A DNA stretch of 64,000 nt from Amycolatopsis viridis (GTDB lineage Bacteria > Actinomycetota > Actinomycetes > Mycobacteriales > Pseudonocardiaceae). Under the pieces are notes generated by a model. The model worked only from the letters and a program-made list of their open reading frames with translations. It did not search any database and was not told the DNA's origin. The stretch lies in NCBI RefSeq assembly GCF_011758765.1, contig NZ_JAANOU010000001.1:2852001-2916000 (forward strand), in the 5' to 3' direction. A program made the position numbers and the translations under genes. Shown here one piece after another: positions 31,130-39,333 of the stretch; position 1 is the stretch's first letter; each line of letters begins with the position of its first letter.

Positions 31130-31765
31130 CTACCTGCCCTCCCGCAGTTTCGTCGCAAGGACGGCGGCCTGGGTCCGCCGTTCCAGGCCGAGTTTGGTGA
31201 GCAGGCGGGAGACGTAGTTCTTGACCGTCTTCTCGGCGAGGAACATCCGCTCCGCGATCTGCCGGTTGGTCAGCCCTTCACCGATGAGGTCGAGGAGAGT
31301 GCGCTCCCGGTCGGTCAGCGCGGCGAGCGGACCGCGCTCCGGGGTGTCCGAGCGCAGCTTCGCCATCAGCGTCGCGGCCGCGCGCGTGTCCAGCTGGGAA
31401 CGGCCCGAGCCGACCTCGCGCACCGCGGACAGCAGCTGGAGGCCCTGGACGTCCTTGATCACGTAGCCGCCCGCACCGGCGAGGATCGCGTTGAGCATCG
31501 CCTCCTCGTCGGTGTAGGAGGTCAGGATCAGCACGTTCAGCCCGGGCAGCCGGGAGCGCAGTTCCCGGCACAGCTCGATGCCGTTGCCGTCGGGCAGCTG
31601 CACGTCGAGCACCGCCACGTCCGGACGCAGCGCGAGCACCCGGGCCAGTGCCTGCCCCGCGGTGGACGCCTCGCCGATGACGGACAGCCCGGGGTCGGAC
31701 TCCAGCAGGTCGGCGACGCCACGGCGGACGACCTCGTGGTCGTCGACCAGGAACACCTCGATCAT
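31130..31765 (-). CDS. NarL/LuxR-family response regulator, second DosR-like paralogue
   Basis: 211 residues, AAAGG ribosome site. Same architecture as the regulator at 24460: Asp54 in [13 protein letters not shown], Lys in VIKDVQG, DNA-recognition helix [20 protein letters not shown] identical between the two. It lies 137 bp downstream of a DosS-like kinase on the same strand, so they form a two-component pair. With identical recognition helices the two DosR proteins should bind the same sites, which implies shared or competing regulons. Confidence 0.93.
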
Positions 31766-31902
31766 CCCGCTACCTTTCGCCGTGCGCGGAACCTCCCAGG
31801 CTACGGACGCCCGCGCCGCCCGGACACGGACGAAGGTCACCAGCGCTCAGGGCACGAGGACCGCAGCTCCGGTGACCCCGTGGGGCGGGAGGTCCCGAAC
31901 CG

Positions 31903-33663
<1,761 letters not shown>

Positions 33664-34235: not shown

Positions 34236-37200
34236 ATGGGCGTGGGTGACTGGCTGCGCTCGTGGCCGGTGTACCGGCAGCTGACCGGCGCCGACCCGCT
34301 GGGCCGGGGTAGCGCAGCGCAGTCGGCGCGGTCGCGGTCGCTGGTGCCGCGCACCGCCTCGGCGGACCGGGTGGTCCATTCGGTGTGCCCGTATTGCGCG
34401 GTGGGGTGCGCGCAGAACGTCTACGTCAAGGACGAGCAGGTCGTCCAGATCGAGGGCAATCCGGACTCGCCGATCTCGCGTGGCCGGCTGTGCCCGAAGG
34501 GGTCGGCCAGCAAGCAGCTGGTGACCGGTCCGCAGCGGGTGCAGAAGGTGCTCTACCGCGCGCCCTATGGCACGCAGTGGCAGGAGCTGGACCTGCCGAC
34601 GGCGATGGACATGGTGGCCGAGCGGGTGCTGGACGCGCGGCGCAAGGGCTGGCAGGACCGCGACGAGCACGGCAACACGTTGCGGCGCACGATGGGCCTG
34701 GCGAGCCTGGGTGGCGCGACGCTGGACAACGAAGAGAACTTCCTGATCAAGAAGTTGTTCACGGCGCTGGGTGCGATCCAGATCGAGAACCAGGCCCGTA
34801 TTTGACACTCCGCCACGGTTCCCGGTCTGGGAGCCTCCTTCGGTCGCGGTGGTGCGACGGATTACCAGCAGGACCTGATCAACTCCGACTGTGTGATCAT
34901 CATGGGCTCGAACATGGCCGAGGCCCATCCGGTCGGGTTCCAGTGGGTGGTGGAGGCCAAGGCGCGGGGCGCGAAGGTCTTCCACATCGACCCGCGGTTC
35001 ACCCGGACCAGTGCGCTGGCGGATCGGCACGTGCCGTTGCGCGCCGGGTCGGACATCGCGTTCCTCGGCGGCGTGATCAACTACATCCTGAGCAACGGGC
35101 TGGAGTTCCGGGAGTACGTGCGGTCGTACACGAACGCGCCGTTCCTGGTGAGCGAGGAGTTCGCCGACACCGAGGACCTGGACGGGTTGTTCAGCGGCTA
35201 CGACCCGGAGACGGCGTCCTACGACCCGGCGAGCTGGCACTACGAGAGCTCGCGGCCCGGGCCGGGTGACGGCGCGCGGGCGAAGGAGCAGTCGGCGCCG
35301 GACCAGCACGGGTCGGGCGGGCCGCCGATCCAGGGCGGGGCCGACGACATCGCCGCGGATCCGTCGCTGGAGCACCCGCGGTGCGTGTTCCAGATCCTCA
35401 AGCGGCACTTCTCGCGGTACACGCCGGAGATGGTGGAACGCGCGTGCGGGGTGCCCGTCGAGCTGTTCCTCGAGGTGTGCCGGGCGTGGACGGAGAACTC
35501 GGGCCGGGAGCGGACCGCGGCGCTGGTGTACAGCGTGGGCTGGACGCAGCATTCGATGGGTGCCCAGTACATCCGGGCGGGTTCGATCATCCAGCTGCTG
35601 CTGGGCAACATCGGGCGTCCGGGCGGCGGGGTGTTCGCGCTGCGCGGGCACGCCTCGATCCAGGGCTCCACCGATATTCCGACGTTGTTCAACCTGCTGC
35701 CCGGGTACCTGCCGATGCCGGACACCTCGCACGAGGACATCGCCGCCTACCTGCGCGGCATCCGCGGTGAGCGGCAGAAGGGGTTCTGGCACAACGCCGA
35801 CGCCTACCTGGTGTCGCTGCTGAAGGAGTACTGGGGCGAGCACGCCACGGCGGACAACGACTGGTGCTTCGACTACCTGCCGCGGATCAACGGTGATCAC
35901 GGCACCTACCGGACCGTGATGGACATGATCGACGGGAAGGTGTTCGGGTACTTCCTGCTGGGGCAGAACCCGGCGGTGGGGTCGGCGCACGGCCGGTTGC
36001 AGCGGCTGGGCATGGCGAACCTGGACTGGCTGGTGGTGCGGGACCTGGCGATGATCGAGAGCGCCACGTTCTGGAAGGACTCGCCGGAGATCGAGACCGG
36101 GGAGATCGTGCCGGAGCGGTGCCGCACCGAGGTGTTCTTCTTCCCGGCGGCGTCGCACGTGGAGAAGTCGGGCACGTTCACGCAGACGCAGCGGATGCTG
36201 CAATGGCGGGACAAGGCGGTGGAACCCAAGGGTGATCAGCGCAGCGAGCTGTGGTTCTTCTACCACCTGGGCCGGATCCTGAAGGAGAAGCTCGCGGGGT
36301 CGGCGGACGAGCGGGACCGGCCGCTGCTGGACCTGTGGTGGGACTACCGGATGGAGGGGGAGGAGCCCTCCGGTGAGGACGTGCTGCGGCGCATCAACGG
36401 GGTGAACCTGGAGACCGGGCGGGCGCTGAACGGCTACCTCGAGCTGAAGGCGGACGGCAGCACGGCGTGCGGTTGCTGGATCTACAGCGGGGTGTTCGCC
36501 GACGAGGTGAACCAGGCGGCGCGCCGCAAGCCGCACGACGAGCAGGGGCCGTACGAGTCGGAGTGGGGCTGGACCTGGCCGCTGAACCGGCGGGTGCTGT
36601 ACAACCGGGCGTCGGCGGATCTGCAGGGCCGTCCGTGGAGCGAGCGCAAGAAGCTGGTGTGGTGGGACGCGCAGAAGGGCGAGTGGACCGGGTACGACGT
36701 GCCGGACTTCGAGAAGACGAAGCCACCGGACTACCGGCCGGAGCCGGGTGCGTCGGGTCCGGCCGCGTTGCACGGTGATGATCCGTTCGTGATGCAGGCC
36801 GACGGCAAGGGCTGGCTGTTCGCGCCGAACGGGGTGCTGGACGGGCCGTTGCCGACGCACTACGAGCCGCACGAGTCGCCGGTGCGCAACCCGCTGTACG
36901 GGCAGCAGGGCAATCCGGCGCGCAAGGTGTACGCGCGGGCGGACAACCCGTCGAACCCGTCGCCGCCGGAGCAGCACGGCGAGGTGTTCCCGTTCGTGTT
37001 CACCGCGGCGCGGCTGACCGAGCACCACACGGCGGGCGGGATGAGCCGTCAGCTGCCGTACCTGGCGGAGTTGCAGCCGGCGTTGTTCGTGGAGGTCTCG
37101 CCGGAGCTGGCGGCCGAGCGCGGGCTGGTGCACCTGGACTGGGCGCACGTGGTGACGAGCCGCGCGGCGGTGGACGCGCGGGTGTTCGTCACCGAGCGGA

Positions 37201-37493
37201 TGCGGCCGCTGCGCATCGAGGACCGGGTGGTGCACCAGATCTGGATGCCTTACCACTGGGGTTACACGGGTCTGGTCGACGGCGACGTGGTGAACGACCT
37301 GCTGGGTGTGGTGGCCGATCCGAACGTGTTCATCCAGGAGAGCAAGGTGGCCACGTGCGACATCCAGCCGGGCCGCCGCCCGCGGGGCCCGGCCCTGCTG
37401 GACTACCTGGAGGAGTACCGGAAGCGGGCGGGTGTCACGGTGGAGACGGGCGCGCACGTCGACACGGCCGCCGGAGCGGAGGGGCGGTCATGA
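34236..37493 (+). CDS. formate dehydrogenase catalytic subunit, selenocysteine-containing (TGA 34803-34805 read as Sec)
   Basis: 1085 residues when the in-frame TGA at codon 190 is read as selenocysteine. Before it: [4Fe-4S] motif CPYCAVGC ... GRLCPKGS; around it: ENQARI-Sec-HSATVPGLGASFGRGGA, the Sec-His active-site pair of FdnG/FdhF-type enzymes. After it come molybdopterin-binding stretches (VIIMGSNMAEAHP, HIDPRFTRTSALAD). It oxidises formate to CO2 at a Mo/W-bis-MGD centre. The frame resumes exactly and no other stop interrupts it. No twin-arginine signal is present, unlike E. coli FdnG, so the active site should face the cytoplasm. Strong GGGAGGAGG ribosome site; next gene overlaps (ATGA). 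Annotation pipelines would split this gene in two. Confidence 0.95.
34803..34835 (+). promoter_or_regulatory. bacterial SECIS element directing selenocysteine insertion
   Basis: UGA at 34803-34805, 11 nt of spacer, then a 7-bp stem 34817-34823 / 34829-34835 (one U-G pair) closed by loop GGUCU. In E. coli fdhF the spacer is also 11 nt and the apical loop is AGGUCU, the part read by SelB. Loop, spacing and stem length all match. Confidence 0.93.
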
Positions 37494-38395
37494 CGAACGG
37501 TTTCTCCGGTCCGTTGCCGGACCCGGCGGGCAACGCCGGTTACCTGGAGCACCCGCCGCGGGTGGGGTTCTTCACCGACACCTCGGTGTGTATCGGCTGC
37601 AAGGCGTGCGAGGTGGCGTGCAAGGAGTGGAACGGGGTGCCCGACGACGGGTTCGACCTGCTGGGCATGTCGTTCGACAACACCGGGTCGCTCGGGGCGA
37701 ACTCGTGGCGGCACGTGGCGTTCGTGGAGCAGGACCGGCCGGGTGCGGTGTCGCCGGAGCCGGTGGATCTGGGGCTGCCCTCGTTCGAGCTGCCGGGCGC
37801 CGGGGACGGCGCGGGGAGCCGGACGGACTTCCGGTGGCTGATGAGTTCCGACGTGTGCAAGCACTGCACGCACGCCGGTTGCCTGGACGTGTGCCCGACC
37901 GGCGCGTTGTTCCGCACCGAGTTCGGGTCGGTGGTGGTGCAGCCCGACATCTGCAACGGCTGCGGCTACTGCGTGTCCGGCTGCCCGTACGGGGTGATCG
38001 AGCGGCGTGAGGACGACGGTCGCGCGTGGAAGTGCACGTTGTGCTACGACCGGCTGCGGGACGGGCTGGAGCCGGCGTGTGCGAAGGCGTGCCCGACCGA
38101 CTCGATCCAGTTCGGACCGCTGGACGAGCTGCGGGAGCGGGCCGCACGGCGGGTGGACGCGCTGCACGAGGCTGGTGTTGCCGAGGCGCGGTTGTACGGC
38201 GAGAGCCCGGACGACGGTGTGGGCGGGGACGGTGCGTTCTTCCTGCTGCTGGACGAGCCCGAGGTATACGGTCTGCCACCGGATCCGGTGGTGCCCACCA
38301 AGGATGCCGGGTCGATGTGGCGGTACGCGGGGGTGGCCGCCTCCGCGCTGGTGGGCGCCGCGGTGTCGGTCTTCTTCGGACGGGGCAGGGGATGA
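37490..38395 (+). CDS. formate dehydrogenase iron-sulfur (beta) subunit
   Basis: 301 residues, ATGA-coupled to the catalytic subunit. Four [4Fe-4S] clusters' worth of cysteines: CIGCKACEVACKEWN, CKHCTHAGCLDVCP, CNGCGYCVSGCPYG and CTLCYDRLRDGLEPACAKACP. A C-terminal hydrophobic helix (WRYAGVAASALVGAAVSVFFG) anchors it to the membrane, as in FdnH. It carries electrons from the selenoprotein to the membrane subunit. Confidence 0.95.
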   Translation: MTNGFSGPLPDPAGNAGYLEHPPRVGFFTDTSVCIGCKACEVACKEWNGVPDDGFDLLGMSFDNTGSLGANSWRHVAFVEQDRPGAVSPEPVDLGLPSFELPGAGDGAGSRTDFRWLMSSDVCKHCTHAGCLDVCPTGALFRTEFGSVVVQPDICNGCGYCVSGCPYGVIERREDDGRAWKCTLCYDRLRDGLEPACAKACPTDSIQFGPLDELRERAARRVDALHEAGVAEARLYGESPDDGVGGDGAFFLLLDEPEVYGLPPDPVVPTKDAGSMWRYAGVAASALVGAAVSVFFGRGRG

Positions 38396-39333
38396 AGGAG
38401 CAGGTCGCGGTGCCGAAGGCGGAGTTCCGGTCGTACTACGGGCGGCCGGTGCTCAAACCGCCGGTGTGGGAGTGGAAGATCCCGGCCTACCTGTTCACCG
38501 GCGGGTTGTCGGCCGGGTCGGCGCTGCTCGGTGCGGGGGCGGATCTGACGGACCGGCCGGTGCTGCGGCGGGCGGGCCGCCTGGGCGCGCTGGGTGCGCT
38601 CGCGGCGAGCATGTACCTGCTGGTGGCCGATCTGGGCCGGCCGGAGCGCTTCCTGCACATGCTGCGGGTGGCCAAGCCGAGTTCCCCGATGAGCATGGGC
38701 ACCTGGATCCTGGTGGCCTACGGGCCGGGCGCCGGGGTGGCGGCGGTGGCCGAGCTGGTGCCGGCGAAGCTGGCGAAGACGTGGCCGGGGCGGCTGCTGC
38801 GGTGGGCGGCGCGACCGGCCGGGCTCTCCGCCGCGGCGATCGCGCCTGCGGTGGCGTCCTACACGTCGGTGCTGCTGTCGCAGACGGCGGTGCCGGGGTG
38901 GCACGCGGCGTACCGGCAGCTGCCGTTCGTGTTCACCGGGTCGGCCGCGGCGAGTGGCGCGGGGCTGGGGCTGGTGTGCGCGCCGGTCGCGGAGGCGGGC
39001 CCGGCGCGGCGGCTGGCGGTGGTTGGCGCGGCGGCCGAGGTGGTGGCGTCGAAGCTGGTCGACCAGCGGCTCGGGCTGATCTCGCAGGCGTACACGACGG
39101 GCAGGGCGCACCGGCTGCGGAGGTGGGCGGAGTACCTGACCGTCGGGGGCGCGGTGGGTGCGCTGGCGGGTCGTCGCAGCCGTGCGGTGTCCGTGGTGTC
39201 GGGACTGGCGTTGCTGGCGGGTAGCGCGTTGCAGCGGTTCGGGGTGTTCGAGGCCGGGGTGGAGTCCACGAAGGACCCGAAGTACGTGGTGGTGCCGCAG
39301 CGGGAGCGGCTCAGCCGCGCGCGCGGGCGCTGA
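38392..39333 (+). CDS. NrfD/PsrC-family membrane subunit of the formate dehydrogenase
   Basis: 313 residues, about eight hydrophobic segments, ATGA-coupled to the beta subunit. NrfD hallmarks: IPAYLFTGGLSAGSALLGAGA in the first helix, DLGRPERFLHMLRV and SPMSMGTWILVAYG. NrfD subunits bind quinone and contain no heme, in contrast to the cytochrome b gamma subunit of FdnGHI; this makes the complex a quinone-reducing formate oxidase or a quinol-dependent CO2 reductase. The C-terminus overlaps the convergent MBL gene by 23 bp. Confidence 0.93.
   Translation: MKEQVAVPKAEFRSYYGRPVLKPPVWEWKIPAYLFTGGLSAGSALLGAGADLTDRPVLRRAGRLGALGALAASMYLLVADLGRPERFLHMLRVAKPSSPMSMGTWILVAYGPGAGVAAVAELVPAKLAKTWPGRLLRWAARPAGLSAAAIAPAVASYTSVLLSQTAVPGWHAAYRQLPFVFTGSAAASGAGLGLVCAPVAEAGPARRLAVVGAAAEVVASKLVDQRLGLISQAYTTGRAHRLRRWAEYLTVGGAVGALAGRRSRAVSVVSGLALLAGSALQRFGVFEAGVESTKDPKYVVVPQRERLSRARGR

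Follow-up and report, generated by a model that had tools for sequence, protein, structure and literature searches.

The 64,000-nucleotide stretch of the Amycolatopsis viridis genome analysed here (the window) contains a formate dehydrogenase (FDH) gene, fdhA, at positions 34236..37493 of the forward strand. It codes for the catalytic (alpha) subunit of the enzyme in 1085 codons, including one in-frame TGA (34803..34805, + strand) that alignment to known FDHs and to homologous loci places at the active-site position, residue 190, as a selenocysteine (Sec) codon. From the sequence we consider it highly probable that Sec is inserted at this UGA by SelB and a bacterial selenocysteine insertion sequence (bSECIS). 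This reading is supported by the Sec-decoding machinery in the same genome, the conservation of the stop codon, silent covariation in the hairpin behind it, the replacement of Sec by cysteine (Cys) with loss of the hairpin loop, and the matching of TAG codons with CUA anticodons in related genomes.

With the TGA translated as U, the gene forms a single open frame (34236–37490, 1085 residues) in which U190 lies in the motif NQARI-U-HSATVPG; the terminal stop is a second TGA (37491–37493) that overlaps the start of fdhB. The original prediction had placed an in-frame TGA at the active-site Sec position and had described the two halves as one open reading frame (ORF); its coordinates proved exact and the frame is open throughout. 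Full-length FdhA scored above the cut-offs of the curated FDH alpha-subunit models NF041513 formate_DH_Act (NCBIfam, 1938.9 bits; cut-off 1400) and TIGR01553 (934.7 bits; cut-off 814.2), which places it in the FdhA family. Similarity to E. coli FdnG and the Sec-FDHs of sulfate reducers (1kqf, 1h0h, 9qm0) is nearly full-length, in two stretches, and their Sec column corresponds to U190, which aligns with residue X in 1kqf and 1h0h and with C in the 9qm0 record. At E ≤ 1e-100, a search for this type of FdhA gives a single gene in the genome.

A bSECIS is a stem-loop with a conserved loop at a set distance behind UGA, and such an element is found at 34817..34835 (+ strand). An 11-nt spacer (34806–34816) separates it from the UGA, and its 7-bp stem, formed by the arms GGTTCCC (34817–34823) and GGGAGCC (34829–34835), encloses a GGUCU loop (GGTCT in the DNA, 34824–34828). 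RNA folding of the Sec codon region (34803–34842), a check that had been proposed beforehand, returned exactly this 7-bp hairpin. The claimed agreement with the spacing of E. coli fdhF likewise matches the E. coli K-12 sequence (NC_000913), where tga is followed by 11 nt (cacggcccatc) and ggttgcaggtctgcacc. The two elements share the 11-nt spacer, a stem beginning GGTT and the GGTCT loop; they differ in that the window stem GGUUCCC/GGGAGCC is fully paired with one U-G pair, whereas the E. coli fold has a bulged U and extends downward. The two strands of the window together contain 1115 TGAs; six of them are followed at the same offset by any hairpin with a 7-bp stem and a 5-nt loop, and the fdhA codon is the single one with a GGTCT or AGTCT loop at that offset (1/1115, compared with 2/223,000 in shuffled stretches).

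The genome, one contig of 5.68 Mb (C1) rated 95% complete, encodes the apparatus needed to read such a codon. A tRNA-Sec with anticodon TCA (C1:741624–741714, 82.2 bits) is accompanied by selA (C1:741752–743002, 422.4 bits; cut-off 267.9), selB (C1 from 743011, 245.3 bits; cut-off 242.25) and selD (C1:740633–741547, 392 bits; cut-off 125), the last on the strand opposite to the rest of the cluster. The SelB product has the SelB beta-barrel and C-terminal winged-helix domains. These four genes form one cluster approximately 2.1 Mb away from fdhA, and fdhD was also found in the genome. A UCA tRNA-Sec together with SelA, SelB and SelD above curated cut-offs defines the bacterial Sec-decoding trait, which this genome thus carries. 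The original prediction had proposed a search of the genome for these genes and had named the absence of selB or tRNA-Sec as grounds for rejecting Sec; this objection does not apply because selD, tRNA-Sec(UCA), selA and selB are all present.

To place the codon among its relatives we assembled 127 homologous loci, namely the best 30 of a search of the order, the best 80 of 202 in genome_contigs and 17 others, whose genomes gave no tRNA-Sec match at E ≤ 1e-10. Since the 30 and 80 loci are best hits, the sample favours close relatives; the nearest named genomes were Amycolatopsis tucumanensis (92%), A. bartoniae (84%) and A. sacchari (84%). The Sec site could be placed in 124 of the 127 loci, the exceptions being three fragments (L166, L169 and L171). 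These 124 loci include the window copy (L018), count one site of genome G136 twice (as L168 and L172) and may contain some species more than once; they carry TGA in 115 cases, TAG in two, TGC in six and TGT in one, so that an in-frame stop occupies the Sec residue in 117/124. These data bear on the possibility that fdhA is a pseudogene or contains a sequencing error, in which case the TGA would be a real nonsense mutation leaving two fragments. A mechanical ORF list does split the gene in this way (34236–34805 and 34893–37493). However, the stop is conserved at the same residue in the homologues, the two halves of fdhA are under similar purifying selection (dN/dS 0.18–0.29 over six comparisons), and the hairpin loop is conserved and its stem co-varies. 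We rejected this explanation on the basis of the conserved stop and the similar constraint on the halves, and its probability is close to nil.

For analysis of the hairpin itself, 41 homologous stretches chosen for variety, with the window copy included, were aligned and used to build an fdhA SECIS covariance model. The inner stem and loop (CCC, GGTCT or AGTCT, GGG) are otherwise invariant in the 41 sequences. The stem pair formed by columns 18 and 30 corresponds to the wobble bases of a Val and a Gly codon, and its covariation is silent at the protein level: the 40 distinct rows have CG (20), UA (10), UG (7), GC (2) and GU (1). The covariation score of 0.235 was reached in 0/500 shuffles (0.133 shuffled) and fell to 0.025–0.112 when the partner was slid. 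Seven further pair types occur in the stem, a number reached by 8/500 shuffles. Searched against the whole genome, the covariance model gave one strong match (71.5 bits), at fdhA, and the next scored 19.2 bits. We avoid the claim that fdhA is the only selenoprotein gene because a model derived from fdhA would miss other SECIS types.

Across a sample of 298 genomes of the order, FDH (E ≤ 1e-100) was found in 207 and tRNA-Sec (E ≤ 1e-10) in 205; 193 genomes have both, 14 FDH only, 12 tRNA-Sec only and 79 neither, the Fisher p of this table being uncorrected for shared ancestry. Selenoproteins had been described beforehand as patchily distributed in actinobacteria; with FDH and tRNA-Sec together in 193 of 298 order-mates, the combination is common here and not patchy. 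Seven of the 14 FDH-only genomes (G007, G049, G095, G142, G159, G219 and G255) have a Cys codon, TGC or TGT, at the Sec site (loci L162, L163, L164 and L165 and the reverse strands of L159, L160 and L161). In all seven of these homologues, from genomes without tRNA-Sec at the above threshold, the GGTCT loop and the stem are gone, and a SECIS search of four of them gave no match. On sequence grounds, the Cys versions with loop loss are a natural control for the predicted SECIS function. Internal TGA codons flagged in the Cys homologues of G142, G095 and G255 turned out to be the terminal stop.

A second natural variant replaces TGA by TAG. Among the matches listed, at least 34 FDH entries contain TAG only, and every one is labelled family f16. 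In 9/9 examined f16 genomes with a TAG-only entry, a match to the tRNA-Sec family RF01852 with anticodon CTA was found; ARAGORN names these matches tRNA-Pyl. The named TAG loci belong to a Modestobacter and to a Blastococcus metagenome-assembled genome, genera that we take to be members of Geodermatophilaceae, and f16 is therefore probably this family. Three further FDH entries among the matches listed (G248, G110 and G025) have two stops.

The Cys and TAG homologues also bear on whether UGA might be read as another amino acid (Trp, Cys or Arg) by a near-cognate or suppressor tRNA. That Cys occurs at the Sec site in homologues indicates that it may be tolerated there. Yet the same genome carries the selC-selA-selB cluster and selD, fdhA is the only strong genome-wide target of the fdhA-type SECIS model, the terminal stop of fdhA is also TGA, and TAG homologues accompany a CUA tRNA-Sec, so that we assign non-Sec decoding a very slight probability. 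General reassignment of TGA in this genome is excluded because fdhA ends in TGA and a dedicated tRNA-Sec exists.

Several observations weigh against insertion of Sec directed by this hairpin. Its folding energy is ordinary (z −0.8, with 43/200 shuffles as good). The Rfam family SECIS_3 (RF01989), the best in a 251-nt search around the hairpin (E 5.8e-6), scored 33.0 bits against a gathering threshold of 63; on TGA/TAG relatives the same family gave 24–33 bits in four of five, and its search of the TGA/TAG relative L092 gave no match. In the stem alignment, two pairs have changed on both sides, a number equalled in 345/500 shuffles, and 21 of the 40 distinct sequences cannot form the outermost pair. 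Third-base identity behind the UGA is raised just moderately: across 117 sequences it is 0.83 over codons +1 to +12 and 0.70 in the remaining codons (one-sided p 0.018, uncorrected for relatedness). Finally, six genomes (G013, G068, G082, G136, G153 and G177) keep the TGA without a clear tRNA-Sec, and these count against a perfect rule.

Folding z-scores were weak in other Sec genes too, and some Cys genes fold better through a different pairing (L163, z −3.8); folding energy was consequently dropped as evidence for a SECIS. Because the energy is ordinary, the evidence for the element lies in its position, loop and conservation and not in its stability. Of its earlier description as a canonical SECIS, the spacing and the loop hold, whereas the 33 bits against 63 call for some reserve about the term, and a search of the entire window at the Rfam gathering threshold gave no match. 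The hairpin is not classed as a member of SECIS_3, and is predicted to work like one.

Of the six genomes that retain TGA, G013, G082, G153 and G177 are rated 63–87% complete, G068 98% and G136 100%. A repeat search at E ≤ 1e-7 gave RF01852 matches barely above the family cut-off in G013, G068, G082 and G153 (best 48–54 bits), which ARAGORN names tRNA-Ser(TGA) in G013 and G153 and does not recognise as a tRNA in G068 and G082. The tRNA-Sec search at this threshold gave no match in G136, G177 and G179, the last of which has an FDH fragment with a TGA that could not be placed on the Sec site. The FDH of G136, a genome of 80 contigs, carries TGA at the site (G136:C43:2139–5246), and this case may reflect an assembly gap, a divergent tRNA-Sec or a decaying gene.

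Following the general bacterial scheme, SelD would make selenophosphate, SelA would turn Ser-tRNA-Sec(UCA) into Sec-tRNA-Sec, and SelB-GTP carrying this tRNA would bind the GGUCU-loop hairpin and deliver Sec to the ribosome without termination. Sec190 is expected to ligate the molybdenum or tungsten bis-MGD cofactor. Electrons from formate would then pass through the Fe-S clusters of FdhA and FdhB to an NrfD-like subunit and into the quinone pool, and the physiological role of the enzyme may be the oxidation of formate from catabolism.

Two further genes follow fdhA. The iron-sulfur (4Fe-4S) electron-transfer subunit fdhB (37490..38395, + strand) matches Pfam Fer4_11; its start codon was assigned from an ATGA overlap with fdhA, and the longer ORF from 37355, used as query, scored 178 bits with the FDH-beta model TIGR01582, under the cut-off of 335. 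It is followed by a gene for an NrfD-like membrane anchor or quinone-reacting subunit (38392..39333, + strand; Pfam NrfD, 59.5 bits), for which the family search was run from 38335 and the start was likewise assigned from an ATGA overlap, with fdhB. The fdhA-fdhB-nrfD-type operon has the predicted layout of a respiratory FDH, and its NrfD-like membrane (gamma) subunit may distinguish it from E. coli FdnG and the FDHs of sulfate reducers. Upstream of the operon, the minus strand at 31130–33660 of the window encodes a GAF-GAF histidine kinase and a LuxR-type response regulator, which might control the region in response to redox state or hypoxia; a DUF6098 gene lies between this pair and the FDH operon.

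In the wider sample, tRNA-Sec occurs without this FDH at E 1e-100 in G009, G011, G031, G033, G044 and G089 and in G111, G131, G132, G157, G192 and G224, of which G111, G132, G192 and G224 are among those rated 100% complete; these genomes may use Sec in other proteins. Five f15 genomes (G139, G193, G232, G240 and G279) have, among the matches listed, two full-length FDH copies with one in-frame TGA apiece. Family f15 may be Micromonosporaceae, as suggested by Actinoplanes-type genera being named hits at similar identity.

The f16 genome G085 has two tRNA-Sec-type genes, one with anticodon TCA (contig C17; L206, 1169–1263, minus strand) and one with CTA (contig C11; L207, 6833–6928, minus strand), and its fdhA carries TAG. 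Adjoining the TCA tRNA is an AhpD-like frame (L206, 1579–2157, + strand; Pfam CMD, 28.2 bits, cut-off 23) with a TGA at codon 98 in the sequence C-F-Y-U-M-E-S-H, a C-x-x-U motif. A hairpin of ordinary stability (72/200 shuffles as good), with a 7-bp stem and a 3-nt loop, begins 10 nt behind this TGA; an Rfam search of the gene gave no match. Relatives of the AhpD-like gene at E ≤ 1e-20 occur in nine other genomes of the 298 (32–40% identical), none with an internal stop; no relative was found in viral_contigs, and its plasmid relatives are all below 60% identity. The first 20 kb of the 69-kb contig C17 have 70% GC, compared with 75–78% in two other stretches, and hold transposase-like ORFs, as judged by eye. 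Because of this lower GC and these ORFs, acquisition or contamination is possible, as is a broken gene; possibly, the UCA tRNA-Sec and AhpD-like gene are an acquired cassette that brought its own tRNA. As a tentative and rather doubtful generalisation, the actinobacterial fdhA hairpin and SelB might fix Sec whichever stop precedes them, leaving the codon to drift between UGA, UAG and Cys, and G085 may use both stops for Sec at the same time.

Actinomycetospora chiangmaiensis belongs to Pseudonocardiaceae, as does the organism of the window. According to the published account, it has three Sec-FDHs (FDH1–FDH3) with SECIS elements found by bSECISearch, its FDH proteins, SelA, SelB and SelD were detected by proteomics, and its formate removal depends on added selenite (PMC7176365). 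It resembles the window system as an actinobacterial Sec-FdhA with SECIS and SelA/SelB/SelD, and its FDH1 is a membrane-bound alpha-beta-gamma set; it differs in having three FDH systems versus one FdhA (E ≤ 1e-100) in the window genome. A further paper reports tRNA-Sec and an FDH whose gene has a UGA codon for Sec in Amycolatopsis mediterranei, and describes A. orientalis as without tRNA-Sec, selA, selB, selD and Sec-FDH (PMC4048454); since A. orientalis is contrasted there as missing them, selA, selB and selD are implied for A. mediterranei. The latter is of the same genus as the nearest named relatives of the window and has the Sec-UGA FDH and tRNA-Sec, but is a different species, likened here by its published description. 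FdhA and SelD are described as the most widespread bacterial selenoproteins (PMC1794560, PMC5029168), and Sec-to-Cys conversions in FdhA with remnant SECIS-like structures behind Cys codons are also reported (PMC1794560). Earlier work on a UAG-Sec FDH with tRNA-Sec(CUA) in Geodermatophilaceae is summarised in PMC5330540, and Mukai et al. 2016, a study of Sec recoding, is cited in another paper (PMC10778597). Our TAG loci have a homologous fdhA and hairpin, and their TAG codon and CUA anticodon contrast with TGA and UCA in the window genome. This kind of gene and its occurrence in Amycolatopsis are thus already in print.

The window adds one more clear selenoprotein gene in an actinobacterium, and within the sampled order a Sec-FDH is the common state. 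For annotation, fdhA is to be treated as one gene in which residue 190 is most likely Sec. Together with its relatives it forms a natural series, in which a single site of one gene holds UGA, UAG or Cys and the hairpin is kept or lost to match.

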